IMG/VR virus record: IMGVR_UViG_3300025864_000012
Span: 1 to 64,000 of that record
Length of the DNA stretch: 64,000 bases
Origin: a virus
Reading direction: 5' to 3' (one strand)
In this document: piece after piece, positions 168-57,534 of the stretch
Layout: each line of letters begins with the position of its first letter
Position numbering within the stretch: position 1 is the stretch's first letter
Translations under genes and position numbers: made by a program
Notes under the pieces: generated by a model
The model's input: the letters and a program-made list of their open reading frames with translations, nothing else
Told to the model about the DNA's origin: nothing
The model's database searches: none

Positions 168-368
168 ATGAGCGCAATGAGTGAGCTCTACCTCGAGGTC
201 TGCGAGATAGCAGACCTGGACATGGACGAAGACGAGGCGTGCATGGACACCGTCAGCGACGCCATCAGGCGCGTCGACGTCGAGTCCATCGTCGGCCTCA
301 ACCTGCTGCCGCAGTCCTGCCGCATCCGCATCCTCGCGGAGCTGACAGCGGCACAGATACCACACTGA
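168..368 (+). CDS. Small acidic hypothetical protein (66 aa)
   Basis: ATG at 168 follows a strong GGGAGGAAAC ribosome site. The product is acidic (LDMDEDEACMD) and probably helical; no family is recognised. The striking feature is its end: the TGA stop codon at 366-368 forms part of the conserved CUGANGA core of the hammerhead ribozyme at 358-423. Self-cleavage would therefore occur 48 nt downstream of the stop and leave this reading frame intact. Confidence 0.75.
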   Translation: MSAMSELYLEVCEIADLDMDEDEACMDTVSDAIRRVDVESIVGLNLLPQSCRIRILAELTAAQIPH

Positions 369-423
369 CGAGCGCCGGGTGACACCCGGGCGAAACGGGG
401 GGCAAATGCCCCCGTCTGTGGTA
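358..423 (+). ncRNA. Hammerhead ribozyme, type I (HHR1)
   Basis: All conserved parts are visible. Core CUGACGA lies at 365-371 and GAAA at 392-395. Stem III (395-401 with 409-415) ends in a GUC cleavage triplet at 414-416. Stem I is a perfect 7-bp helix (358-364 with 417-423). Stem II is a CCGGGU/ACCCGG hairpin with one bulged G. Both ends leave through stem I, so it is type I. Predicted cleavage is after C416. It lies between two genes of one operon, so it would process the polycistronic mRNA and give the downstream gene a new 5' end just before its ribosome site. Confidence 0.9.
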
Positions 424-442
424 GTCAACCAAAGGAGGGAGC

Positions 443-814
443 ATGGGACACTGGATTCAACTGATAGACCCGGACACGGGCGAGACCCTTGAGATGGATG
501 AGCGTTTCGTGGACGGCGGTACCTACCCGAGCGACGGCACGAACGAGTGCGAGCTGAGTGTGACCTACAACTACGGTCGCATCTACGCCAAGGTCCTGCC
601 ACACGACGGGAGCGAGACCAATGGGGCCATCTCCTGGCTCTATGGCAAGACGGGGGCCGAGACGCTGCCTGCACTGCTTGCGGCAGTGGCAGAGCTCGGA
701 ACCTTGCGGGACGCAGACTACTGGAAGACGACTGAAGGCAACGCAGGTGCGGCACTTGCCCGCCTCACTGCCTTCGCTGCCGCTCATCCAGAAGGCATCT
801 GGGAAGGCGACTGA
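443..814 (+). CDS. Hypothetical phage protein (123 aa)
   Basis: ATG at 443 follows AAAGGAGGGAGC, an ideal ribosome site 20 nt after hammerhead HHR1. The N-terminus (GHWIQLIDPDTGE) and central tyrosine-rich part (SVTYNYGRIYAKV) resemble small phage proteins of unknown function; the C-terminal half is alanine-rich and helical. No catalytic motif or membrane segment is seen. Confidence 0.8.
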   Translation: MGHWIQLIDPDTGETLEMDERFVDGGTYPSDGTNECELSVTYNYGRIYAKVLPHDGSETNGAISWLYGKTGAETLPALLAAVAELGTLRDADYWKTTEGNAGAALARLTAFAAAHPEGIWEGD

Positions 815-825
815 GGAGAGGGAAC

Positions 826-987
826 ATGAGAGCCCGTAAGAAGCGCGACCTGTACGTCAACCTCAAGACTCTTACCATCACCGACAAGGTCGGTAACATC
901 ATCACGAGGTTCGGCACGTTGTACGACCTAGAGCGATGGCTATACAGGCAGGGAAAGATCCTCGTGCCGATTGGGGAACCGCACTGA
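826..987 (+). CDS. Small basic hypothetical protein (53 aa)
   Basis: ATG at 826 has GAGGAGAGGGAAC just upstream, overlapping the end of the previous gene. The protein starts MRARKKRDLYV and is basic. As in the 168-368 gene, the TGA stop (985-987) is embedded in the CUGAAGA core of a hammerhead ribozyme (979-1048), an arrangement seen twice in this operon. Confidence 0.7.
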   Translation: MRARKKRDLYVNLKTLTITDKVGNIITRFGTLYDLERWLYRQGKILVPIGEPH

Positions 988-1048
988 AGAGTCCCGGGTG
1001 GCACCCGGGCGAAACGCCTCCCCACTCCCTCCGGGGAGGCGTCTGCGG
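979..1048 (+). ncRNA. Hammerhead ribozyme, type I (HHR2)
   Basis: Core CUGAAGA is at 984-990 and GAAAC at 1011-1015. Stem III is a perfect GCCTCCCC/GGGGAGGC helix closing on GUC (1041-1043), the predicted cleavage site. Stem I pairs CCGCA (979-983) with UGCGG (1044-1048). Stem II is CCCGGGU/ACCCGGG with a bulged U next to the core. An extra GG/CC pairing beyond an AAG-containing internal loop may provide the loop-loop contact typical of active hammerheads. Confidence 0.9.
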
Positions 1049-1118
1049 AAGCCTACACACCAAGGTTACTCTGCCCGGGTGGCTACAGCCTCGGGCATAC
1101 CCCGAAGGGAGGGTACCA

Positions 1119-1309
1119 TGCAGCGAGTGGCAGAACGTCGGGAGACAGTGCGTACCACTTCGCGTATCACCCCGGGGCAAACGCGCCCATCGGCTGACTG
1201 GACCACCAGGGGCCAGCATGCCCGTCATTCGACGCAGCGTCACGCCCATCAAACAGGGGAATCCCCGGCTAAGAATCTGGCCGGGCAAACAGGGGAGAAA
1301 AGCACATGA
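1119..1309 (+). CDS. Possible small basic protein (63 aa)
   Basis: ATG at 1119 follows GAAGGGAGGGTACC, a good ribosome site, and the TGA stop overlaps the ATG of the next gene (ATGATG at 1306), typical of this operon. The composition (Arg, Thr, His, Gln; few hydrophobics) is low-complexity. The DNA also holds a CCGGCTAAGAAT element that recurs in non-coding leaders nearby, so it could instead be a structured leader. The region 1049-1118 before it contains a TGCCCG/CGGGCA hairpin. Confidence 0.45.
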
Positions 1310-1776
1310 TGAGAATGCGGGACAGCCAGCGTCAGAAACTCTACAACTGGGAGGCTAGGTTTGCTCCCGAGGGGGAACACCTATCGCTGGATGAGTGTGC
1401 CGCGCTCGTCAAGAAAGTGGTGCGTCACTACGGAGTTCCGATGCCAGAGGTGAAGGACGGACGCGGTACGCGCTGGGCAAGGGGCGGAAAGCGCTACATC
1501 AGCCTGCCAACCTGGGCACGATCGGAGGAAGTCGTCATCCACGAGGCGTCGCACTGCGTAGTCGACCACTACATTGGCTACTGCGGGGTGGCCAGTCACG
1601 GTCCTGAGTACGTATGGCTCTACACCAACACACTTGCGTGGCACTTCGGCGCGCGAGTCAGTGAACTCCGCAGCTCGGCTCGGTACGTCGGCAAGCTGAA
1701 GATCAGGAAGCCGGAGCGTTACGAAGCACTCCGAAAGAAGTTCCGCGCTATGCAAAAGATGCGCAAGATGGTATGA
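1306..1776 (+). CDS. Putative zinc metallopeptidase, SprT-like (156 aa)
   Basis: The motif VVIHEASHCVV near residues 76-86 is an HExxH zinc site, followed about 17 residues later by HGPEYVWLY, matching the downstream HGxx(F/Y) of SprT-like and phage metallopeptidases. The C-terminus is lysine- and arginine-rich and could bind nucleic acid. Family knowledge suggests a protease or zinc-binding scaffold acting on DNA- or virion-associated protein; the substrate cannot be read here. It is followed by hammerhead HHR3. Confidence 0.7.
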   Translation: MMRMRDSQRQKLYNWEARFAPEGEHLSLDECAALVKKVVRHYGVPMPEVKDGRGTRWARGGKRYISLPTWARSEEVVIHEASHCVVDHYIGYCGVASHGPEYVWLYTNTLAWHFGARVSELRSSARYVGKLKIRKPERYEALRKKFRAMQKMRKMV

Positions 1777-1784
1777 GTTCAGAC

Positions 1785-1875
1785 CCGTACTGAAGATGGC
1801 TGGGTGGCTCCCAGCCGAAACGCCCGGTCGACCCGGTAACTTCCCTCCTCCGGACCACCGGCCGGGCGTATACGG
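1785..1875 (+). ncRNA. Hammerhead ribozyme, type I (HHR3)
   Basis: Core CUGAAGA is at 1790-1796 and GAAAC at 1817-1821. Stem II pairs GGCUGGG with CCCAGCC. The long stem III starts GCCCGG and ends CCGGGC, enclosing about 34 nt. The cleavage triplet is GUA (1868-1870) rather than GUC. Stem I is CCGUA (1785-1789) with UACGG (1871-1875). An unpaired U next to the core in stem II may lower activity. The bases after stem I (AAGCC) match those after HHR2, suggesting a common origin. Confidence 0.82.
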
Positions 1876-2546: not shown

Positions 2547-4649
2547 ATGGCAAAAGTGAAGGTGTTTCAGCACGGCAACCGCTACATCTGCCAATGTCGC
2601 TACGAAGAGAAAGAGATCCCAAAGTCACGCGGGTTCCGCTGGGATAAGAGCATCGGCTGTTGGTGGACAGACGACATCAGCAAAGCTGCGAAGCTGATCC
2701 ACTACTCCGACAAGAAACTGCGCCCACAGCTCGAGGCCGTCCTCGCGCAAGAGCAGGCCAACATCGAGGCCTCCCGCGCCGCGACATTCGACGGCGAGCT
2801 GCCGGTGCCGGAAGGGCTAGCGTACCTGCCCTACCAGAAGGCCGGTATCGCTGCCATGCTCAATCGCCCCTCCACTTTGCTGGCGGATGAGATGGGGCTG
2901 GGCAAGACCGTGGAAGCCATCGGGGTCATCAATACTGACCCAAGCATCAAGCGTGTGCTCGTGATCTGCCCAGCCACACTCAAATTGAACTGGGTGCGGG
3001 AGATGGAGAAATGGTTGGTGGAGCCCCGCTCCATTGCCATCGCCAAGGGCTCAAGACCCAAGGAGTTGCCCGACGCGGACATCATCGTCATCAACTGGGA
3101 CATCCTGTCGCCTTGGCGGCCACTGCTCGAGAAAGTGCAGTGGGACCTCCTCATCGGCGACGAGGCTCACTACGTCAAGTCCCGTAACTCAGCACGTACC
3201 CGCGCCTTGGTGGGCGACGAGCGCAGCGATATGGAGCCCCTGAAAGCAAAACGCAAGCTGTTGCTCACGGGCACGCCCATCCTGAACCGGCCGGTCGAAG
3301 CGTGGACGATCATCAATTACCTCGACCCGCAAACGTGGTCGGAGTTCTTCCGCTACGCCCTGCGCTACTGCGGCGCCAGGAAGGGCGGCTACGGCTGGGA
3401 CATGGGCGGCTCCAGTAACCTTCCGGAGCTGCAAGAAAAGCTGCGTAGCACCATCATGATAAGACGTGCTAAGGCCGACGTCCTGACCGAACTGCCACCC
3501 AAGCGCAGGCAGATAATCGAGGTCAGCCAGAACGGCTACGCAAAGCTCGTCAAGGCCGAGACTGCGGCCTGGGATTCGCAGGAAGACACGGTTGAACGCC
3601 TGCGCGCTGAGGCGGCAGAGGCCAAGCGAGCGGGCGACGAGAGCTACGAAGACGCCGTGCGCCGCCTCCAGGAAGCGGCCTCTGTAGCCTTCGCGCAGGT
3701 CAGTGAAGCTCGACATGAGCTGGCGCTGGCCAAGACGAAGTCTGTCATCGAGCACATCAGCGACATGCTGGATTCGCAGGACAAGATAGTTGTGTTCGCG
3801 CACCACCACGACGTCACCGACGCCATCGTCGCAGCCTTCCCGGGTTGCGTACGCCTTGACGGCCGTGACTCACCCGAAGCCCGGCAGAAAGCCGTGGATC
3901 GCTTCCAGAACGAGCCCGAGTGCCACATCTTTGTGGGCGGCATCCAGGCGGCTGGTGTTGGCATCACGCTGACGGCAGCCGCCGTGTGCATATTCGCGGA
4001 GCTGGACTGGGTGCCGGCCAACATCTCGCAGGCCGAGGACCGGCTGCACCGCATCGGTCAGACCGGCTCCGTGCTCGTGCAGCACCTCGTGGTAGACGGC
4101 TCACTTGATGCGCGCATGGCGAAGACCCTGCTCGCGAAGCAGTCCGTCATCGACCTAGCGCTCAACGACGAGTTCGACACCCCCACGCCTGAGGAGGCCG
4201 CATCTCACGACGCAATCGTCGAGAAGCGGGCCGATCAAGTGGAAGCACAGAACAAGGAGTGGACGGAGCACGCGGAGGCACAGCGTAACACGCCCACGGT
4301 GCCCACTGTCAGCGACAACGTGGTGTACCCGCACGTGCCGGACGGCCGTTACGCCGTCAAGACCAACGATGGCCAACTGGCCTTCTATCGGGTCACGAGC
4401 CCGGAGGAAGGCCGCTGGGCAGGCTTCACGTTCGTGGAGCAGCAGCTCTCGGACGACTTCCACGCCGTGCGCAACCCGCAGGTCAAGCTTGGCATCCTCC
4501 ACAAGATAGCTGAGGATCCCAAGACAGCCATGCTTGAGTATGGTCGGGCCATCGGGCGCTGTGGACACTGTGGCCGCACACTGACCAATGAGGAGTCCCG
4601 TGCCGCTGGTATCGGCCCCGTCTGCCGGTCCCGCTGGACATGGGCATAA
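2547..4649 (+). CDS. SNF2-family DNA helicase/translocase with C-terminal zinc motif (about 700 aa)
   Basis: Helicase motifs appear in order: Walker A ADEMGLGKTVEAI (near residue 120), motif II GDEAH, motif III LLLTGTPILNRP, and C-terminal motifs V-VI GVGITLTAAAVC and QAEDRLHRIGQ. This is an SMARCAL1/HARP-like SNF2 ATPase that moves on or remodels dsDNA, probably in phage replication or recombination. A separate C-terminal Cys cluster (CGHCGRTL...GPVCRSRW) resembles the DUF6011 zinc module. ATG at 2547 is preferred because AAGGAGAAGAGG lies upstream; GTG at 2541 is an in-frame alternative overlapping the preceding stop. Confidence 0.9.
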   Translation: MAKVKVFQHGNRYICQCRYEEKEIPKSRGFRWDKSIGCWWTDDISKAAKLIHYSDKKLRPQLEAVLAQEQANIEASRAATFDGELPVPEGLAYLPYQKAGIAAMLNRPSTLLADEMGLGKTVEAIGVINTDPSIKRVLVICPATLKLNWVREMEKWLVEPRSIAIAKGSRPKELPDADIIVINWDILSPWRPLLEKVQWDLLIGDEAHYVKSRNSARTRALVGDERSDMEPLKAKRKLLLTGTPILNRPVEAWTIINYLDPQTWSEFFRYALRYCGARKGGYGWDMGGSSNLPELQEKLRSTIMIRRAKADVLTELPPKRRQIIEVSQNGYAKLVKAETAAWDSQEDTVERLRAEAAEAKRAGDESYEDAVRRLQEAASVAFAQVSEARHELALAKTKSVIEHISDMLDSQDKIVVFAHHHDVTDAIVAAFPGCVRLDGRDSPEARQKAVDRFQNEPECHIFVGGIQAAGVGITLTAAAVCIFAELDWVPANISQAEDRLHRIGQTGSVLVQHLVVDGSLDARMAKTLLAKQSVIDLALNDEFDTPTPEEAASHDAIVEKRADQVEAQNKEWTEHAEAQRNTPTVPTVSDNVVYPHVPDGRYAVKTNDGQLAFYRVTSPEEGRWAGFTFVEQQLSDDFHAVRNPQVKLGILHKIAEDPKTAMLEYGRAIGRCGHCGRTLTNEESRAAGIGPVCRSRWTWA

Positions 4650-6152: not shown

Positions 6153-6258
6153 GGCAGTGCTCTTCACGTCTGCGTCCCTCACGACCTTCCTTTTCGGGGT
6201 CAAGTGGGGCGTCTCGTTGGAGCGCATCAGGCAAGAGACACGAAGGGAGAAGTCGTGA
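6133..6258 (+). CDS. Single-pass small membrane protein (41 aa)
   Basis: ATG at 6133 has GAGGAGGAAGAAC upstream. Residues about 5-27 form one hydrophobic helix (VLFTSASLTTFLFGV) followed by a charged tail (RQETRREKS). TGA overlaps the GTG of the next gene (GTGA), suggesting translational coupling. Confidence 0.65.
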   Translation: MAWAITEAVLFTSASLTTFLFGVKWGVSLERIRQETRREKS

Positions 6259-6671
6259 AGAACGGCACCGGAGTCAAGCTCATCGAGGTCCGCGACAGTG
6301 GCACCACGATGCCCTGCATGGTCACGGCGATCTGCACCAACGACGCCGAGCACGAACCCGACCGCTGGCTTATCCACCGTGGCGGCTGGGACAAGGATCA
6401 GGTCGGACTCTACTTCGCGTCCCTGTGCCCGGAAAACAACGAATACGCAGTCGGCGTGGCTGGCTATCCGTACATCCACACGTGGAGCCGGACGCAGCAC
6501 AGCCGCACGCTGAAGATCGCGTGGGAATGGGTCCAGGCACACTGGGATGAGGTCAGCTCAGGCGACGTCATCGACGTGCAGTACATCATGGGCGAGACAA
6601 CCGCTCCCAAGCTGAGTGACCGACTGTACGGAACGCCGGAGTACGAAGCGGCTTACGACCAAGAGGCATAG
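6255..6671 (+). CDS. Hypothetical phage protein (138 aa)
   Basis: GTG at 6255 lies in a GTGA overlap and has GAAGGGAGAAG upstream. The sequence is rich in Trp, Tyr and charged residues (TWSRTQHSRTLK, AWEWVQAHW) and has no recognisable catalytic motif. Its TAG stop abuts the 5' strand of hammerhead HHR4. Confidence 0.7.
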   Translation: MKNGTGVKLIEVRDSGTTMPCMVTAICTNDAEHEPDRWLIHRGGWDKDQVGLYFASLCPENNEYAVGVAGYPYIHTWSRTQHSRTLKIAWEWVQAHWDEVSSGDVIDVQYIMGETTAPKLSDRLYGTPEYEAAYDQEA

Positions 6672-6727
6672 TCGAAACGCGGGGCGACCCGCGTCTGCCG
6701 AGCTCGGCCTATCGGCACTGATGAGAC
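6671..6727 (+). ncRNA. Hammerhead ribozyme, type II (HHR4)
   Basis: This copy is circularly permuted relative to the other three. GAAAC is at 6674-6678, followed by stem III (GCGGG/CCCGC, loop GCGA), GUC cleavage triplet at 6693-6695, a closed stem I of 6 perfect bp (6696-6701 with 6712-6717), then CUGAUGA at 6718-6724. The open stem II is short: GUC (6671-6673) with GAC (6725-6727). Open ends in stem II make it type II. It sits between two genes; the weak stem II is the main doubt. Confidence 0.75.
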
Positions 6728-6747: not shown

Positions 6748-7017
6748 ATGAAGAACGGACCAACCCACGAGGACCGGCTCATCGAGCTGCTGAACGACGG
6801 GCACTGGCACTCAGGCCGTGAGATGGCCATCAAGGTGTCTCACCGCTTCGGTGGCTACCTGTTCACGATGAAGCAACACGGCTACAAGTGGGAAAAGCGG
6901 CTTGACCCCGAACGCCCGACAGGGCAATCGTGGTGGCAGTACCGCCTGACCGGCGTCCCCGGCGCTTGCATCCACATCGATGAAGAGACAGGCCAGACGC
7001 GCCTGGAGTCGTCATGA
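6748..7017 (+). CDS. Winged-helix-like protein (89 aa)
   Basis: The N-terminal half (EDRLIELLNDGHWHSGREMA, then HRFGGYLFTMKQHGY and a strand WWQYRL) has the helix-turn-helix and wing pattern of small phage DNA-binding proteins. GAGGAGGAAGA precedes the ATG at 6748. TGA overlaps the next ATG. Confidence 0.6.
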   Translation: MKNGPTHEDRLIELLNDGHWHSGREMAIKVSHRFGGYLFTMKQHGYKWEKRLDPERPTGQSWWQYRLTGVPGACIHIDEETGQTRLESS

Positions 7018-9770: not shown

Positions 9771-9811
9771 AACGTAACCCCTCAAACGTGCAATCCCAGA
9801 AGGGAGACATT

Positions 9812-10681
9812 GTGGTTGACATAGCAAAACTGGTGTACGCGCAGCTCAAGGAACGTCCTGAGTTTGCGTGGCTCGGCATTCTCGAAGCCGTGAGCGAGCA
9901 ACTCGAGAAGGAACTGACGACCCGTGACGAAGCCATCACAGGGCAACTCCACGACATCCAGGAGCAGCTCACGCAAATGCGGGAGCTCGTGACGGCCGCT
10001 CCCGCTGTCACCTCGCAAGAGGCTGAGAACATCGCGCCCACCTCCGCAGCCAGGTTCGACGTCGAGATCCAGGACCGCCACAAGCGGGGAGTCAGGGTGA
10101 TCACCGCCCCGCAGCCCGCCATAGGAGGCTACCGGGCGGTCCTCGACCACTTCCTCGCTTCGGTCGAGAAGCGGGTGGTCGTGGACATGCTGAAGGACGG
10201 CCGGCACAGCATCACGGTCTACGACGGCTTCAAGCGACACATCAACTCAGAGGACCACATCGGCGTTCGCGTGCGTCGGGGTGACGTCATCTTGGAGAAG
10301 GAGGCCCCGGACCCTCAACCAGCCGCTCCAGCACGTAAAGCAATCCTAGATCGCGCGCAGCTGGAGCGGCTACCCGAAGACAAGCGCACACACGCCAACG
10401 GCCGGTTCTGTCAACTGCCGGGCTGCGGCATGCCACTGATTGACCATCAGCGCAAATACTGCTCGTTCAAGCACGTCACCGGGCACCGCGAGTACATGCG
10501 GGCTCGTGGCATCGACCGACAGACGGTGGAGCCCTTCTCATGCGTGCCGGAAGACATCGGCATACGCGGCGTCACCGTTGTTTGCGGCGAGGCCATACGT
10601 GCTTCACGGCAGAGCGACGGTGGTCCTGGCAGCGACCATGAGCTGGCCGCTGTCGGCAGCAATAGCGTGGGTGCCCCGTAA
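9812..10681 (+). CDS. Coiled-coil protein with C-terminal zinc knuckle (289 aa)
   Basis: GTG at 9812 is chosen because AGAAGGGAG lies 7 nt upstream and the in-frame codons before it fall in the hairpin at 9725-9770. Residues 30-75 form a coiled coil (EQLEKELTTRDEAITGQL). A C-terminal CQLPGCGMPLIDHQRKYCSF (about residues 195-214) is a CxxxxC...C knuckle like those in phage proteins that recognise nucleic acid. The final segment is low-complexity. Function unknown. Confidence 0.65.
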   Translation: MVDIAKLVYAQLKERPEFAWLGILEAVSEQLEKELTTRDEAITGQLHDIQEQLTQMRELVTAAPAVTSQEAENIAPTSAARFDVEIQDRHKRGVRVITAPQPAIGGYRAVLDHFLASVEKRVVVDMLKDGRHSITVYDGFKRHINSEDHIGVRVRRGDVILEKEAPDPQPAAPARKAILDRAQLERLPEDKRTHANGRFCQLPGCGMPLIDHQRKYCSFKHVTGHREYMRARGIDRQTVEPFSCVPEDIGIRGVTVVCGEAIRASRQSDGGPGSDHELAAVGSNSVGAP

Positions 10682-11262: not shown

Positions 11263-11400
11263 TTAGGGGCAGTCGGCATCGAGTGGGTCAAGCCATGGAA
11301 TGTAGACTGCGGACAGTACCTCTAACCCGCTTGTCTGCACATCGACATAGATGCCGCTCTCATCCACGAACGAGTGCATTGTCAGGACGATGGTGGGCAC
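11263..11400 (-). CDS. Small acidic hypothetical protein (45 aa)
   Basis: GTG at 11400 lies just after the end of the upstream gene with AGAGATAG as a weak ribosome site. Sequence PTIVLTMHSFVDESGIYVDV has a beta-strand pattern. Its stop is 2 nt from the stop of the convergent lipoprotein gene, so there is no room for a separate terminator. Confidence 0.45.
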   Translation of the reverse strand: MPTIVLTMHSFVDESGIYVDVQTSGLEVLSAVYIPWLDPLDADCP

Positions 11401-11409
11401 CTATCTCTA

Positions 11410-11622
11410 TCAGCCATCGCTGGCTTGGTCTAATACGTGCCGCAGCACGGCCGCGAGGTTCGCAGAGCTATCGTCCACCAGTTCATAGGTCACGACGATG
11501 GTCTTCCCGCATGCACCGTTGTAGCCCCGCTCGGCGAACACCCACTCGCCATTACTGTTCCGCCACACATCTAGGCCCATGTCTTCAGCTACAGATTCTG
11601 CCTTGTCGTTGATCGCGGTCAT
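11410..11622 (-). CDS. Hypothetical protein (70 aa)
   Basis: ATG at 11622 follows CAGAGGGGGAAAT. It begins MTAINDKAESVAEDMG and ends in an alpha helix; one Cys pair is too sparse for a metal site. No family recognised. Confidence 0.6.
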   Translation of the reverse strand: MTAINDKAESVAEDMGLDVWRNSNGEWVFAERGYNGACGKTIVVTYELVDDSSANLAAVLRHVLDQASDG

Positions 11623-11636
11623 ATTTCCCCCTCTGG

Positions 11637-12014
11637 CTAGAATTCCCGTTTCCGCCGCTTGACCGCATTCGCTATCATGCCGCCTTGCTTGGCTTGACAG
11701 CGGTAGCAGTGGACCCTCATAGGGCCATCCTCTTCCCCGCCAAGGGCGACCGGGTTGATGTGGTCTGCTGTTAGCCTGACCGGGCTTCCATCTCTGAATG
11801 TGTCTTTGTGGTGGCAAAGAGGGCAGTAATCACCCCAAATATCGCGCCACTCAGCCACGGCCTTTCGGCGCAGCGCCCGGCAGGCATCATACCTTGGCCT
11901 CCGCTGCTTGCGTGGCTTGCTCTTTGCAAACGGTTTGGGAATATCCCGGGGGTGGCAAACGCAAGTTCGCCTGCGACAACGCGGACAAGGCTTATTCCTA
12001 GCCGACCATGCCAT
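11637..12014 (-). CDS. HNH endonuclease with zinc knuckles (125 aa)
   Basis: The C-terminal half shows an HNH core (DYCPLCHHKDTF, then LTADHINPVALGG and MRVHCYRC), the His-Asn-His fold bracketed by zinc-binding CxxC pairs. The basic N-terminus has another Cys cluster (CPRCRRRTCVC). ATG at 12014 (GGGGGTGGCA upstream) is preferred over the longer frame because it overlaps the end of the preceding HNH gene. Likely a free-standing homing endonuclease or DNA-processing nuclease. Confidence 0.75.
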   Translation of the reverse strand: MAWSARNKPCPRCRRRTCVCHPRDIPKPFAKSKPRKQRRPRYDACRALRRKAVAEWRDIWGDYCPLCHHKDTFRDGSPVRLTADHINPVALGGEEDGPMRVHCYRCQAKQGGMIANAVKRRKREF

Positions 12015-15130: not shown

Positions 15131-15984
15131 GTGCCATCCTCATGAATCGTAGACCGCAGGTCAAAGACAGTTGTGCGGGCCAGTTGCGGGCGCATCTTGA
15201 CCTCCCAGAAGTCACCTTGACTGCGACCCTTCTTGTTCAGCGTGACGTAGCCCGGGTAGCGACGCACTAGCTCAACCGCATCCTCATTGTTCCGCTCCAC
15301 GTTGCGGTAGGTGACTTTATCCCCCTCCACATACGGAGCGGCGTTGTGACCGCCCTTCGCGTTGTAGTACTTCGTCTTGAGGCCAACGAAGTTGTAGCGA
15401 CAGATGGCCCGGTCATCCACAAACCGCATGATCGTGCGTTGGACCTCCTCCTTGTCCCGGGAGTCGACGATATCGTCGTATCGGTTCCGGAAGCCCATGA
15501 ACGCCCCCACGATAACACGAAGACCGAACGTCACCGTCGGCTGCATGAACATCGGGTTCGGAGACCCCGTGGGATAGATACCCCACAGACTGGCCCCGCC
15601 GTCCATCATGACGCCAAACGCCTCGACCGCCAGCTTGTGAACGCTGGGCAACGGAATGATCTTCTTCTCGTTGAGGCGCAGGGCCAGATCTTGGAGGTCG
15701 TCGTCGAAGCTCAGCACCAGCTGTCCCTCGGGGTAGTGGCGCACGATCTTGTTGCGCGCCGCCGTGATAGTCGTGGGCACCACCACCATATCGCGGTACA
15801 TATGGCGCGGCACGGCATCCCGGTAGGCGTCCAGTTCCTCCGCGTCCACGAACAGGGTGATCCGCTCCGGGTCGATACCCCGTGCGATGACAAGCGGTAA
15901 CGTCTTTGACAGCAGGGTATCGACACGCTTGTAGCTCGGGATCGCTACCTCGTAGTTCTCAGGCGTAGATCGGGTCGTACTCAT
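15115..15984 (-). CDS. TET-associated-type glycosyltransferase (TAGT-like, 289 aa)
   Basis: The N-terminus VAIPSYKRVDTLLSKTLP, then RITLFVDAEELDAYR, ARNKIVRHYPEG and LVLSFDDDLQDL form a GT-A fold with a DDD metal site (about residues 92-97). This signature is that of TET/JBP-associated glycosyltransferases, predicted to glycosylate oxidised or hydroxylated DNA bases in phages. A second region (MGFRNRYDDIVDSRD) fits the acceptor side. The neighbouring heptose genes, ParB-like protein and radical SAM proteins support a role in DNA hypermodification; no TET oxygenase is in this window. Confidence 0.72.
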   Translation of the reverse strand: MSTTRSTPENYEVAIPSYKRVDTLLSKTLPLVIARGIDPERITLFVDAEELDAYRDAVPRHMYRDMVVVPTTITAARNKIVRHYPEGQLVLSFDDDLQDLALRLNEKKIIPLPSVHKLAVEAFGVMMDGGASLWGIYPTGSPNPMFMQPTVTFGLRVIVGAFMGFRNRYDDIVDSRDKEEVQRTIMRFVDDRAICRYNFVGLKTKYYNAKGGHNAAPYVEGDKVTYRNVERNNEDAVELVRRYPGYVTLNKKGRSQGDFWEVKMRPQLARTTVFDLRSTIHEDGTWQLR

Positions 15985-18217
15985 AGATTACGTCTCCATT
16001 CTCATCGAGGCCAACCGGCTTCAAGATGCCACCGTGCTGCCTGTACGGGGATGCAGCGGTGTTCGGGTGGTTCCAGTCGTGGTGCATCTCGTCAAACAAC
16101 GTGAGGTCAAAGAACTTCGCACGGCCCTCGCTGGAGTTCGTATTGTACCCGCACGCCCGTTGGTAGATGACATCGCCAACGATCCCTTGGAGGTCGGGAG
16201 CAATGTCCCCGGACCACGTCACGCGCCCCACGCCTGTCTCCTCGTAACGCTTTCTGGCACGCACCAATGCTTCGCCTATCTGGCCCCGTGAGTAGTTCCA
16301 CGACTCGTCAAGGCCACAGCAGGAACCGTTGTGGCAACGCTCCTTGAAGTGCGCGTCGCTGACGTAGAAGCGAATGCCGTGCATCTCGCAAACCGCCTGC
16401 ATCTGGTTGACCAACGGCCGCTTGTAGTCACGGTTCAGGCGCAGGTAGCCAGACGAGTTGCTGCGCTCGCGGTAGAACTGAACGATGTCGAAGCCCACTG
16501 TCTTGCTGAGAAGCGGGTAGCGCCACTTCTTGCCCGAGGGGCTACGCTGCTCGAGACAGAAGAACTCGGTGCTCAGGGCGGTCGCGCCGGCATCAGCGGC
16601 ACGCTCGATGAGGCGCACATGGCCAGGGGTGCCATCTTTCACGGGCAGGTCGCTCATGCCCGGGACGAAGGGCCGCAGGCGCAGGGTCACGCCGCCCGCC
16701 GCGAACTGCGCGGCACGGGCCATGCCCTCGAACCGCTCGGTCGTGGTTGGAACACCGCGCTCGACCGACCGCACCATATCTTCGTTGTTGGAGATGATGC
16801 TGAACTTCACGTTCCAGGGCATGCCCTTGAACAACTCGACGTAGCGTTCGTCCTCCGTCCACCAAGCAAACTTGGTCGAGAAGCAAAGTGGGTACTCGAT
16901 CTCGCGGAAGAACTTGAGCAGCTCGAGCGTCACGCCATGCTTTCTCTCAAAGAGGTCGAACTGATCAGAGAGACCCCCCCACTGCATGGGCCTACGGGCT
17001 GCCACGTAGTGCTTGAATTGGCTATCACCGCCGGTGAAGATCTTCTTGACAGACTCAACGTCCACTGGGCGAATGTTCTTGGTGGCGAAGTTCTTCTTTG
17101 CGACCCCCACATCACGCTGGTTGACACTGAAGCAGTTGCGGCTATGGAATCCTTGGCCGATGTAATTGCCAGACGTGGTCTTGAGGCTGATCACTTCGTG
17201 CTCACCCAGTTCATCCTGAATCGACACAATGGGATCCCACTCCACGGCACACTCGCGACCGGACATCTGCCGCTTCTGCGTACTAGCCGAGTCGAAGTGA
17301 GCAAAGAATCGTGCGGCGGAGTTCATGCCGCCGTTCAGGCCGATGCCCTTCCACATCTCAGACAGATCGTTGAACCCGGCAGCCCGCAGAGCATCCAGAA
17401 CGCGCTCGTAAGTCAGGGGTTCCTCCCCCGCCTCAATGGCGAAGGCGAGGCTGCCCTGCTGCGACCAAGCGCCTACACCATCGAAGATTCCTGCGATCCA
17501 GCCGCGCCAGTACTCTGGATCCTGACAATGCTGGCGCGTCTTGAGCAACTCGACAACAGCCTTCTGCGCGATCCTCACGCCCTGGGGATGAGTACCACTC
17601 CGCGCGAAGGAGTTCAAGACGACATCAAGATCGGCCGCGTATTCCTCGAAGCGGGCGAAGGCAACACGATCCTTACGATACATGCGGAAACTGCACACGT
17701 GGGACTTCCGGTCGGAGTAGTCATAGGACTTGTCAATGAACGTCGCGCTACACTCCGCCAGGCCATGCATGTAGCCCCACTTGTAGTCCCGAGTCGCCTC
17801 CCTTGGATCCACCGCCTCTGCCACGCTGTGGAACTCCATGCCATAGCCCGCCCGGCAATAACCAGTCATCTCAGACTCGTTGGACCGCAAGAACCAATGG
17901 TGATCGGGAGTGCAGCGGACAGTCTTGCCACTGGCGGTCTCGATGGACATCAGCGGGGCCGTGCGCTTGAACACCTCGACAACGACGTTATCCACGCCCT
18001 CCCAGCCTTCCCCGTTCGTCACAAGCCCGGCCAGCTTGTCGCCAATCACCAGGGTCCCAACCGGAGCCCAGCTGCCGTCGGCCAACATTACCAAGGCCTC
18101 CGGGGGCTGGCAGTAAAGACAATCCGCCGAGCACCGCGAGTACGTGTCAAACGTCATCGGCATGCTACAGTCAGGTAGTTCAGCACTCCAGCGCGGGCTC
18201 GCATAGTATTCCGTCAT
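15959..18217 (-). CDS. Radical SAM enzyme interrupted by an intein (752 aa precursor)
   Basis: The host protein begins MTEYYASPRW and has CSADCLY just before the intein and CFSVNQRDV just after it, so splicing rebuilds CxxxCxxC, the [4Fe-4S] site of radical SAM enzymes (Cys29, Cys33, Cys362). Later segments (PMQWGGLSDQFDLFERKHG, CFSTKFAWWT, FVPGMSD) resemble spore-photoproduct-lyase-like phage radical SAM proteins. The unspliced form should be inactive. It lies between the TAGT-like glycosyltransferase and a deformylase gene, overlapping both, which suggests a role in base modification. Confidence 0.8.
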   Translation of the reverse strand: MTEYYASPRWSAELPDCSMPMTFDTYSRCSADCLYCQPPEALVMLADGSWAPVGTLVIGDKLAGLVTNGEGWEGVDNVVVEVFKRTAPLMSIETASGKTVRCTPDHHWFLRSNESEMTGYCRAGYGMEFHSVAEAVDPREATRDYKWGYMHGLAECSATFIDKSYDYSDRKSHVCSFRMYRKDRVAFARFEEYAADLDVVLNSFARSGTHPQGVRIAQKAVVELLKTRQHCQDPEYWRGWIAGIFDGVGAWSQQGSLAFAIEAGEEPLTYERVLDALRAAGFNDLSEMWKGIGLNGGMNSAARFFAHFDSASTQKRQMSGRECAVEWDPIVSIQDELGEHEVISLKTTSGNYIGQGFHSRNCFSVNQRDVGVAKKNFATKNIRPVDVESVKKIFTGGDSQFKHYVAARRPMQWGGLSDQFDLFERKHGVTLELLKFFREIEYPLCFSTKFAWWTEDERYVELFKGMPWNVKFSIISNNEDMVRSVERGVPTTTERFEGMARAAQFAAGGVTLRLRPFVPGMSDLPVKDGTPGHVRLIERAADAGATALSTEFFCLEQRSPSGKKWRYPLLSKTVGFDIVQFYRERSNSSGYLRLNRDYKRPLVNQMQAVCEMHGIRFYVSDAHFKERCHNGSCCGLDESWNYSRGQIGEALVRARKRYEETGVGRVTWSGDIAPDLQGIVGDVIYQRACGYNTNSSEGRAKFFDLTLFDEMHHDWNHPNTAASPYRQHGGILKPVGLDENGDVIYEYDPIYA
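17135..18112 (-). mobile_element. Intein with degenerate LAGLIDADG-type endonuclease (326 aa)
   Basis: Residues 36-361 of the precursor. It starts at Cys36 (CQPPEALVMLADGSWAPVG, block A), has block B CTPDHHWFL near 102-110, endonuclease-like blocks YMHGLAECSATF (about 149-160) and WIAGIFDGVGAW (about 240-251), and ends with block F/G NYIGQGFHSRN followed by Cys362. The first endonuclease block lacks the usual acidic residue and the second reads FDGVG instead of DGDG, so cutting may be lost. The penultimate residue is Arg rather than His. Confidence 0.85.
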
Positions 18218-30411: not shown

Positions 30412-31458
30412 TTACCTCGCTTTCGAGTCGTACTCCCTCAATGGGGAGTCTTCATTGAGATGATTGAGAACCAGGTTGTAGACAACATCTCCCCGCAGTT
30501 TGCTCCAGTGCAGCCGCACCGCGATGCCTTGCACTATCTCCGCTCCCACGATAGCGTGGTCGATGTAGTTCTTCTGCATGACCTCGACACCATCCCGCAG
30601 AAACGTCTTGTTTTTTTCGCGGGCTACGAAGGGCTTGCCGACGTCATGGAGCAGGGCTGCCCATCTCAGCTCCGGAGATCCGTGAGTGGCCGCCGCCTCC
30701 ACCACCGCCATGGTGTGCCCCCACAGCGTCTTGCTGTGATACGGAGTTTGCTGATCGTACCCAGCCTGAATCGAGACCTCGGGCAGGATGAACTTGAGAA
30801 TACCGATGGACTGCGCCATCATCAGGCCGATGCTCGGTTGATCGCACATCAGAATGGCGTCAAGCTCGGGCACCCAGCGGTTGCGACTCACGTTGACGAT
30901 GCTTGGCGCGCAACGCGCCGCTGCCGCTGTCGTCTCACCGTGGACGTTGAAGTCCAGCTTGGCAGCGAAGCGACAAAGCCGCAACAGCCGCAACGGATCC
31001 TCCTTGAACCGCTGGCGCGCATTGCCTACCGCCCGAAGCACCCCGTCCATGAGGTCGTCAATTCCACCCTGGGGGTCATGCACGGCCAGCGTGTCGGCGT
31101 CCATCGCCATCGCGTTGATGGTGAAGTCACGACGCGCAAGATCGTCCTCGAGGGTCGCTGCAAAGCTCACCTCTGGATGACGTGAACCCGGGGTATACTT
31201 CTCGGTCCGAAAGGTGGTGATCTCTACCTGCTGGCCATCAACGCGCATACCCAACGTACCATGCTTGTCGCCGACATGATACACCTTTCGGCCAGCGGAC
31301 TCAATGAGCGCCTCCACCTCAGGGGGGAGCAGTGGCGTACAGAAGTCATAGTCCTTCGGGGTGACCCCCTGCGTGATGTCGCGCACGGCACCACCGACCA
31401 GATAGGACGGGTAGATCACCGACCTGACTTCCTTTACGATTTCAACCCAGTCAGCCAT
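30412..31458 (-). CDS. CCA tRNA nucleotidyltransferase-like with HD domain (348 aa)
   Basis: The class II nucleotidyltransferase head is clear: YLVGGAVRDITQG, KDYDFCT, HVGDKHGTLG, ARRDFTINAMAMD and the neck GNARQRFKEDPLRLLRLCRF. The C-terminal HD domain (WAALLHDVGKPFVA, YIDHAIVGAEI) matches CCA enzymes with phosphohydrolase activity. It would add or repair CCA ends on tRNAs, fitting the nearby RNA repair genes; the tRNAs here already encode CCA, so repair is more likely than maturation. Confidence 0.9.
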   Translation of the reverse strand: MADWVEIVKEVRSVIYPSYLVGGAVRDITQGVTPKDYDFCTPLLPPEVEALIESAGRKVYHVGDKHGTLGMRVDGQQVEITTFRTEKYTPGSRHPEVSFAATLEDDLARRDFTINAMAMDADTLAVHDPQGGIDDLMDGVLRAVGNARQRFKEDPLRLLRLCRFAAKLDFNVHGETTAAAARCAPSIVNVSRNRWVPELDAILMCDQPSIGLMMAQSIGILKFILPEVSIQAGYDQQTPYHSKTLWGHTMAVVEAAATHGSPELRWAALLHDVGKPFVAREKNKTFLRDGVEVMQKNYIDHAIVGAEIVQGIAVRLHWSKLRGDVVYNLVLNHLNEDSPLREYDSKAR

Positions 31459-36145: not shown

Positions 36146-36489
36146 GGCGTGCTCCTCTCGGCAACGGGGGCCGTCGTGGTGGTGAGTATGTAGCTTGGTG
36201 GCGGGAACGCCGCCGTAACCGCGAAGTACGCACGACAGTTGGCGCAGTAGTAGGAGTCGGCAATGACCGACTCTTGGGCAATGCCAATTGTCCGGGCTCC
36301 GCAAAGTGGACAGCAGACGGCAACGGCCTTCTGACTGACTTGGTACATCACTTCTCCTCCGTCGTGATATTCTGTGTCAATGTCCACCCCCAGCGCCTCG
36401 GCGATCTCCCGCGCCGCCTCGCCCGAGCGAATCATTTCGAGACTGGCGCGGCGGCTAGGCTCGGTGGAGTGTGTCACAAAGTGTGTCAC
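36142..36489 (-). CDS. Zinc-ribbon hypothetical protein (115 aa)
   Basis: GTG start overlaps the previous stop (GTGA). CCPLCGARTIG and YYCANCRAYF form a zinc ribbon. An internal ATG at about 36350 has a very strong GGAGGAGAAGTG site and would give a 68-aa form containing just the ribbon, so two products are possible. Confidence 0.55.
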   Translation of the reverse strand: MTHFVTHSTEPSRRASLEMIRSGEAAREIAEALGVDIDTEYHDGGEVMYQVSQKAVAVCCPLCGARTIGIAQESVIADSYYCANCRAYFAVTAAFPPPSYILTTTTAPVAERSTP

Positions 36490-47066: not shown

Positions 47067-48218
47067 CTACGCCTTGATTACAGCTAGCGGCCGCAGCCGC
47101 TTCTCTATCGCAACGAGGTCCGACTGGTTAGCCATGACCTCATCAATGTCCTTGTAGGCCTGCCGGCATTCCTCCGCCACATCCCCTCGCTTCGTCTTGA
47201 ACAACGAGATGTCAGCAGCCTTCATCTCCGCCACCACCTGCTCGGCCGGGATGGTGCGCTGCGCCGCCTTTCGTCCCATAGTACGCCCCGCGCCATGGGA
47301 GCATGACATGAACGACTCGCGATTGCCTAGCCCCACGCCGATGTAGCTGGCGCTGCCCATACTGCCGGGGATGATGACCGTCTCGCCCTCACGCGCCCTG
47401 ACGGCTCCCTTTCTGTGCACCATCACGTTCTTGCCGAAGTGGTTTTCCATGACGGCATAATTGTGGTGGATGTCGATCTCGTCGCCCCAGCCGATGCCCT
47501 CTCTGTGCAGGATACTCTGGATGGCGTGCATCATGTGCTCGCGGTTGAGGTAGGCGAAGTGCAGGCATGCGCTCATCTCGGCGAGATAGGTTTGCCCCTC
47601 GTCCGATTCAAGCGGCAGGAACGCCAACTCGTGCTCTTTCGGTACCGACGAATGCCAGCGATCATTCATCGCAATGGCGAGCGCGTTGTAGTGCTTGGCC
47701 ACCTGAAAGCCGACGTTTCGGCTGCCGGAATGGAGCATGAACCACGCCATGCCGTCTTCGTCGGCCTGCGCCTCGATGAAGTGGTTGCCGCCGCCGAGAG
47801 TGCCGATCTGGGTAAGGGACTTCTGGTATTCGCGGTCCAGGACCGGAGTATCGTTCGAGGGGTCGAACCAGTCCGGCTGCTTCTCTTTGTGGTGATTGAA
47901 CCCGGTCGGAATCACTCGCTGGATATCGTGCATGATGGCTTCGCGCTTCGCCATGAACTCGTCGCGGGTACATTCAAGCGGCCAGGCACGCATTCCGCAG
48001 CCAATGTCAAAGCCCACGGCGTGAGGGATGACGACGCCTTGCGTGGCTAGCACACCCCCGATGGGCATGCCGTAGCCCTGGTGGCAATCGGGCATGATGG
48101 CAACGTGCCGGAACGCGAACGGCAAGATGGCAAGGTTGGCGGCCTGCGCTAACGCGCCGTCCTCTGCGGTGTCTGTCCAGATCTTGAGCGGTACACGCCC
48201 CTCACTGATGACCTTCAT
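47067..48218 (-). CDS. rtcB: RtcB RNA ligase (383 aa)
   Basis: RtcB motifs are complete: IMPDCHQGYGMPIGGV and HAVGFDIGCGMRA (Mn/GTP site), GTLGGGNHFIE, LHSGSRNVG, IDIHHNYAVMENHF and SCSHGAGRTMGR with the guanylylated His. It joins RNA 3'-phosphate or 2',3'-cyclic-phosphate ends to 5'-OH ends using GTP, the end type left by many tRNA-cutting toxins. Length matches the shorter bacterial RtcB2 type. No archease is adjacent. Confidence 0.95.
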   Translation of the reverse strand: MKVISEGRVPLKIWTDTAEDGALAQAANLAILPFAFRHVAIMPDCHQGYGMPIGGVLATQGVVIPHAVGFDIGCGMRAWPLECTRDEFMAKREAIMHDIQRVIPTGFNHHKEKQPDWFDPSNDTPVLDREYQKSLTQIGTLGGGNHFIEAQADEDGMAWFMLHSGSRNVGFQVAKHYNALAIAMNDRWHSSVPKEHELAFLPLESDEGQTYLAEMSACLHFAYLNREHMMHAIQSILHREGIGWGDEIDIHHNYAVMENHFGKNVMVHRKGAVRAREGETVIIPGSMGSASYIGVGLGNRESFMSCSHGAGRTMGRKAAQRTIPAEQVVAEMKAADISLFKTKRGDVAEECRQAYKDIDEVMANQSDLVAIEKRLRPLAVIKA

Positions 48219-57186: not shown

Positions 57187-57262
57187 TGGCTGGCGCGGCA
57201 GGCATCGAACCTGCGACCGCTCCGGTAACAGCGGAGTGCTCTACCTGCTGAGCTACGCGCCA
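57187..57262 (-). tRNA. tRNA-Asn (GUU)
   Basis: All arms fold: acceptor TGGCGCG/CGCGCCA, D-arm GCTC/GAGC with AGCAGGTA loop, anticodon stem CTCCG/CGGAG with loop CTGTTAC, variable CGGTC, T-arm GCAGG-TTCGATG-CCTGC, discriminator G and encoded CCA. Confidence 0.93.
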
Positions 57263-57264
57263 AT

Positions 57265-57354
57265 TGGCGGATGAGGTAGGATTCGAACCCACGGAGCTGT
57301 TACGCTCGGCTGTTTTCAAGACAGCTGCCTTCAACCAGACTCGGCCACTCATCC
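57265..57354 (-). tRNA. tRNA-Ser (UGA)
   Basis: Acceptor GGATGAG/CTCATCC, anticodon stem GCTGT/ACAGC with loop CTTGAAA, long class II variable arm, T-arm with TTCGAAT loop, discriminator G and encoded CCA. Only 2 nt separate it from the Asn gene. Confidence 0.92.
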
Positions 57355-57355
57355 T

Positions 57356-57441
57356 TGGCGGATGGAGCAGGATTCGAACCTGCGACGGTGTGACCCGTTG
57401 CGGCTTAGCAAGCCGGTGCCTTACCTCTCGGCCATCCATCC
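57356..57441 (-). tRNA. tRNA-Ser (GCU)
   Basis: Acceptor GGATGGA/TCCATCC, anticodon loop TTGCTAA (GCU), long variable arm, T-arm GCAGG-TTCGAAT-CCTGC, discriminator G, encoded CCA. The outer anticodon-stem pair is C-C, a small defect. Confidence 0.88.
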
Positions 57442-57445
57442 TTAG

Positions 57446-57534
57446 TGGTGAGCAGGGTAGGATTCGAACCTACAGGAGACCCAGTCTCAACGAGGTTACA
57501 GCCCGCCGCGACGCACCGTCTTCGCCGCCCGCTC
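57446..57534 (-). tRNA. tRNA-Tyr (GUA)
   Basis: Acceptor GAGCGGG/CCTGCTC, D-arm GCGA/TCGC, anticodon stem with wobbles and loop CTGTAAC (GUA), long variable arm (TGAGAC...GTCTCC) as usual for bacterial Tyr tRNA, T-arm GTAGG-TTCGAAT-CCTAC, A73, CCA encoded. Confidence 0.9.

Follow-up and report, generated by a model that had tools for sequence, protein, structure and literature searches.

The window analysed here is the first 64 kb (64,000 nucleotides) of the 94,142-base IMG/VR virus record IMGVR_UViG_3300025864_000012, which comes from an uncultured phage. Close to its left end, short genes read from the plus strand are separated by hammerhead motifs on the same strand. A small ORF of 66 aa (168-368, +) ends inside the first of them, HHR1, where its UGA stop codon (366-368) is at the same time U4-G5-A6 of the ribozyme core. 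The next ORF (123 aa, 443-814, +; no Pfam match) opens with an ATG 26 nt past the predicted HHR1 cut, with a Shine-Dalgarno-like AGGAGGG in between. The UGA stop (985-987) of the ORF behind it (53 aa, 826-987, +) likewise coincides with U4-G5-A6 of HHR2, and an ORF of 63 aa (1118-1309, +; no Pfam match) starts 74 nt past the HHR2 cut and overlaps the start of its neighbour. This neighbour (156 aa, 1306-1776, +) has a weak SprT-like metallopeptidase match (E 0.0056, below the curated cut-off) and stops 8 nt before HHR3. The ATG of the ORF following HHR3 (201 aa, 1939-2544, +; spermidine synthase/methyltransferase-like, E 0.00072, below the curated cut-off) is located 68 nt past the cut. Further downstream, an ORF at 6255-6671 (+), which may instead start at 6204, has a UAG stop that reaches into HHR4 by one base, its first, and the ATG of an 89-aa ORF (6748-7017, +), preceded by GAGGAGGAAG, lies 52 nt past the HHR4 cut. 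This ORF layout bears out the initial annotation in placing the type I copies between genes read from one strand. Promoter and terminator calls gave nothing above the random level that would support or limit a single transcript.

Two other proteins of the window are unusual in sequence. A 752-aa protein (15959-18217, -) contains an internal weak match, below the cut-off, to an intein splicing domain, and a 775-aa protein (61616-63943, -) carries many WEGSFxCxxxSAVA-like repeats. In addition, short stretches at 36385-36435, 28194-28245 and 28833-28877 match repeated DNA pieces in the related phage L206 (positions 9781-9833, 11392-11440 and 11733-11784), and are possibly dispersed regulatory repeats.

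Cores, stems and detection of the four hammerheads

Hammerheads were searched on both strands with a descriptor comprising the core CUGANGA, GAAA, A15.1-U16.1, H17 and three stems, which tolerated one defect in stems II and III. In the window, the descriptor returned exactly HHR1-3, of type I, and HHR4, of type II. Thirty Markov-randomised 64-kb sequences gave a mean of 0.5 matches of any type and a maximum of 2; the four hammerheads of the window share one strand and lie within 6.4 kb, compared with 0.5 matches in 64 kb of random sequence. A covariance model, R1, was built from 39 phage hammerheads of other contigs and contains zero window sequences. Its training loci were IMG/VR stretches matching a DNA pattern modelled on HHR1 and HHR2 (more than 119 matches). 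In the training alignment 99.5% of the paired cells are paired, a score that is partly built in because a pairing-requiring descriptor did the selecting.

HHR1 (358-423, +) and HHR2 (979-1048, +) score 38.7 bits (E 1.4e-9) and 42.3 bits (E 9.7e-11) with R1 on the whole 94-kb contig, where R1 is independent of them in sequence and, since its training pattern came from these two copies, not in search criterion. Both have the conserved core C3U4G5A6N7G8A9, G12A13A14, A15.1-U16.1 and H17. HHR1 reads CUGACGA and GAAA, with a predicted cut at C416|U417, a stem III of 7 bp and a stem I UACCACA/UGUGGUA that is reduced to 5 bp, CCACA/UGUGG, in the register of the model. HHR2 reads CUGAAGA (N7 = A) and GAAA, with a predicted cut at C1043|U1044 and a stem III of 10 bp. 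A hairpin at 1072-1096 (+), GCCCGGGUGGCUACAGCCUCGGGC, stands between HHR2 and the ORF that follows; it is similar to the HHR2 stem II hairpin and lacks a hammerhead core.

HHR3 (1785-1875, +) falls outside the pattern derived from HHR1 and HHR2, yet R1 scores it with 24.4 bits (E 4.2e-6; 8 kb, filters off). A search with default filters missed it, probably owing to its long stem III and an extra base. Its predicted cut is A1870|U1871, its GAAA is present, and its 11-bp stem III has a long distal part. In all three type I copies, three helices surround the core and stem I is open. Descriptor and R1 agree on type I hammerheads at the three positions, the predicted cuts are at C416, C1043 and A1870, as had been proposed, and the descriptor confirms well-paired stems, with 7/8/7, 5/8/10 and 5/7/11 bp in stems I/II/III of HHR1, HHR2 and HHR3. 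The accompanying description of full cores holds for HHR1 and HHR2 and fails for HHR3, which has an inserted U; this non-canonical core had been overlooked, as had the type II hammerhead at 6671-6727.

HHR4 (6671-6727, +) was found by the descriptor and by Rfam RF02276 (40.9 bits, cut-off 37), with a predicted cut at C6695|U6696. Its stems I and III are closed, its stem II is open and its core is standard; it matches the full Hammerhead_II model with no notable difference. In its loop I, GGCCU is the complement of AGGCU in the 3' tail; read from the sequence, this would be the type II counterpart of the loop II-tail contact of HHR1-3.

At curated thresholds, the Rfam hammerhead models call HHR4 only, and all three type I copies stay uncalled. 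HHR2 reaches 17.5 bits with Hammerhead_1 (RF00163; gathering cut-off 34), a sub-cut-off score that is no argument against type I membership, because in loci L005 and L032 no copy reaches the Rfam cut-off either, though they are clear type I hammerheads; HHR1 and HHR3 are unlisted. The gathering score of RF00163 is a score cut-off and not a feature of the fold.

Neither the descriptor nor R1 nor a relaxed altered-core scan gave a further hammerhead above the random level in the contig. Extra altered-core copies were discarded as candidates, the relaxed scan yielding no more than randomised sequence does. In 1.21 Mb of RtcB-bearing control phage loci, R1 likewise had no match with an E of 1 or less. 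The contig begins mid-gene at base 1, so more hammerheads could lie upstream.

The extra U of HHR3 and the proposed loop II-tail contact

The core of HHR3 reads CUGAAGA-U-GGCUGGG...CCCAGCC-GAAA. One additional U (1797) stands between A9 and the first stem II pair, so that A9 is not followed directly by the G10.1-C11.1 pair, and we class HHR3 as a core variant. To tell decay from variant, a scan of viral contigs allowed any base at the inserted position. Among 16 matches with full type I geometry (a few of them near-duplicates), the inserted base is U in 15 and A in one. The HHR3 insertion is thus a recurrent phage variant with a strong preference for U. With its additional core base and its GUA cleavage triplet, HHR3 may be a slow cleaver. 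In the CChMVd plus-strand hammerhead, an extra nucleotide is placed between A9 and position 10.1. The viroid ribozyme (De la Pena and Flores 2001, as cited in the accessible text of PMC3705267 and PMC4918200) resembles HHR3 in having a single extra nucleotide in an otherwise normal core. It differs in that the viroid has A while the phage variant almost always has U (15/16), and in that one is a viroid and the other a phage mRNA. The accessible part of the open-licence literature yielded no description of the recurrent extra U.

Each type I copy carries, directly 3' of stem I, bases that are complementary to its own loop II. The tail of HHR1, GUCA (424-427, +), is complementary to UGAC (384-387) in loop II UGACA. 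In HHR2, the GCC of the tail AAGCC (1049-1053, +) is complementary to the GGC of loop II UGGCA, and in HHR3, AGCCA of the tail AAGCCA (1876-1881, +) is complementary to UGGCU of loop II GUGGCUC. The complementarity spans 4, 3 and 5 nt, respectively. HHR1 covaries, with loop UGAC and tail GUCA in place of GGC and GCC, and the 5-bp stem I register of R1 gives it the same contact geometry as HHR2 and HHR3. In a dereplicated set of 119 type I hammerheads, 28 have a loop II/tail complementarity of at least 4 nt, against 8.1 on permuting the tails, and the complementary tract begins 1-2 nt past stem I in 29 of 39 cases. A GCC tail occurs together with a GGC loop 9 times, against 1.4 expected, mostly in other phages, so the contact recurs in hammerheads of unrelated phages.

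The AAGCC shared by HHR2 and HHR3 had been taken as a sign of duplication. That argument does not stand, since AAGCC is the complement of UGGC in loop II and its partner co-changes in HHR1. Complementarity, covariation and recurrence elsewhere make AAGCC better read as a tertiary contact, and in our reading the loop II-tail contact takes the place of duplication as its cause. HHR2 and HHR3 may still share an ancestor, as both have the uncommon N7 = A, found in 6 of the 119 dereplicated hammerheads. From the observed complementarity, we infer that loop II would form a pseudoknot with the bases 3' of stem I in the folded RNA of HHR1-3. It would correspond to the pseudoknot between stems I and II that, in the accessible text of Perreault et al. 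2011, is present in about 40% of their hammerheads and raises activity (PMC3088659).

Related arrays and known systems

The density of three copies within 1.6 kb, which had seemed notable, is not exceptional. At least two type I hammerheads occur in at least 50 of the loci scanned, and in each of these all copies are on one strand. In the other loci, the median distance between neighbouring copies is 668 nt, and the 621 and 806 nt in the window are typical. Seven type I hammerheads are packed into about 5 kb in each of four loci (L032, L051, L005 and L009). Only 26 stretches of bacterial and archaeal genomes matched the same pattern, 11 of which score at least 41 bits with R1. Of the 119 hammerheads, 40 have the stop of the upstream gene 4-10 nt ahead of the core; among 472 control CACTGA sites, 47 do (p 2.6e-9). 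A stop inside the core occurs in 18 of the 119 and in 37 of the 472 controls (p 0.02, about two-fold). Both comparisons are approximate, because the long-ORF rule places HHR2 in another frame that is probably spurious. In 100/119, a start codon preceded by a Shine-Dalgarno-like site follows within 300 nt, and its median distance from the cut is 32 nt. The survey points to arrays of this kind being common among uncultured phages, one-directional and tightly fitted between a stop codon and the next ribosome-binding site.

Close relatives of the present locus did not emerge. The SprT-like and helicase proteins had no match among viral contigs, and the search gave no homologous locus. In two phages that have RtcB and further genes in common with this one (L206-L211), the parts covered show no hammerhead and no homologue of two of the region's genes. 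For three other arrays, no cultured relatives were found at the nucleotide level.

Phage hammerheads were correctly noted as known, and both their clusters and the idea of mRNA cutting are already in Perreault et al. 2011. In the accessible text of that paper, prophage clusters flank single genes or blocks of genes and processing of long transcripts is suggested; tandem hammerheads from prophages of three bacteria cut native fragments of about 2 kb while these were transcribed in vitro, and in E. coli one triple set was active in vivo (PMC3088659). More generally, self-cleaving ribozymes of bacteria are enriched in each other's vicinity and close to Mu-like phage genes (PMC10085705). The window resembles prophage clusters such as the Agrobacterium tumefaciens triple set flanking ardA (PMC3088659, accessible text): several copies of mixed types lie on one strand and flank phage genes. 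Unlike the prophage clusters in the accessible text, it has other genes in another phage, and HHR3 has the extra U after A9. The core UGA of HHR1 and HHR2 as a stop codon has no counterpart in the accessible text of Perreault et al. (PMC3088659), and no description of a core UGA doubling as a stop codon was found in the accessible part of the open-licence literature.

A second likeness is HHphage of the haloviruses HF1/HF2, as given in the accessible text of PMC3088659 and PMC7230728. It is also a virus-borne hammerhead just upstream of an early gene, with a mapped transcript end no more than 3 nt from the predicted cut, and the HF1/HF2 group encodes RtcB, as does the present phage. It differs in being single, in having a salt-dependent variant core and in belonging to archaeal viruses. 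Hammerhead arrays of the present kind are therefore already known, and the extra U and the stop-codon details are unusual, not unique.

Probable cutting of the transcript and its alternatives

From the motifs, their placement and their orientation, we infer, with a probability of about 0.8, that four genuine hammerheads occupy short gaps of co-oriented phage genes and most likely cut the nascent polycistronic RNA. On the sequence evidence, cutting into transcript units would be the most plausible reading of the intergenic placement on one strand. The nascent RNA would be cut co-transcriptionally after C416, C1043, A1870 and C6695. Upstream units would then carry a terminal 2',3'-cyclic phosphate directly after the stable hairpins of stems II and III, and downstream units would start with a 5'-OH and have leaders of 26, 74, 68 and 52 nt carrying the ribosome-binding site. 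Fast cleavage of the three type I copies would probably be aided by the pseudoknot of loop II with the bases 3' of stem I. The likely benefit to the phage would be that stability and dosage of neighbouring mRNAs are uncoupled.

The position of the stop codons raises the question of whether cleavage is gated by translation. A ribosome terminating at a stop codon in the core or before stem I might hold the ribozyme open, and translation of the upstream gene would set the timing of the cut. The core UGA of HHR1 and HHR2, the UAG overlapping HHR4 and, in related loci, the strong excess of stops directly before stem I and the about two-fold excess of stops in the core (p 0.02) all fit such gating. 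Plain compaction of phage genomes, however, accounts for the same placement, HHR3 is separated from the stop by 8 nt and numerous related copies are further away from one, so we regard gating as unlikely. It is highly improbable that the elements serve only as stable 3' hairpins or terminator-like structures, with cleavage not being the selected trait. Stems II and III are indeed long and G+C-rich, but fifteen unpaired core bases are retained in HHR1, HHR2 and HHR4, the loop II-tail complementarity is kept though superfluous for a plain hairpin, and no T-run follows the elements on their 3' side.

RtcB ligates exactly 5'-OH and 2',3'-cyclic phosphate ends, and the window encodes an RtcB (47067-48218, -; PF01139, 375.7 bits). 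The phage enzyme might thus join the ribozyme-made ends into circular or spliced phage mRNAs, which we consider very unlikely. Of 50 hammerhead-bearing viral records, many of them fragments, only that of this phage has RtcB, and the 1.21 Mb of RtcB-bearing phage loci are those without an R1 match. RtcB-mediated circularisation was set aside after the association had been checked in both directions and none was found. RtcB is accompanied by Ro60/TROVE, a CCA-adding enzyme and tRNA genes, which makes RNA repair its simpler role. According to the accessible text of Perreault et al., circular or spliced products were sought and none was detected (PMC3088659).

The RNA-repair set is encoded on the minus strand and comprises, besides RtcB, a TROVE/Ro60-like protein (23465-25000) and a CCA-adding enzyme (30412-31458); the tRNA genes are at 57190-57534. 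Next to the latter, a tmRNA match (RF00023, 57538-57618, -, 69.9 bits) is only 81 nt long. It has a tRNA-like domain with G3-U70, a T arm, an encoded CCA and a hairpin, and lacks the mRNA-like domain. A similar short element is present in the related phage L207 (about 3777-3860), and a specific pattern was found in 40 viral contigs with 30 distinct sequences, 21 of which have six or more acceptor pairs. By its sequence, the element may be a phage 'mini-tmRNA'.

The locus is one more phage operon studded with predicted self-cleaving ribozymes. If translation gating were true, phage mRNA would be cut between genes only once upstream translation slows or ends. Annotation by Rfam alone will miss such arrays, as their type I copies are below the cut-off in the loci checked. 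The arrays provide a defined set of loci for addressing the role of phage hammerheads.
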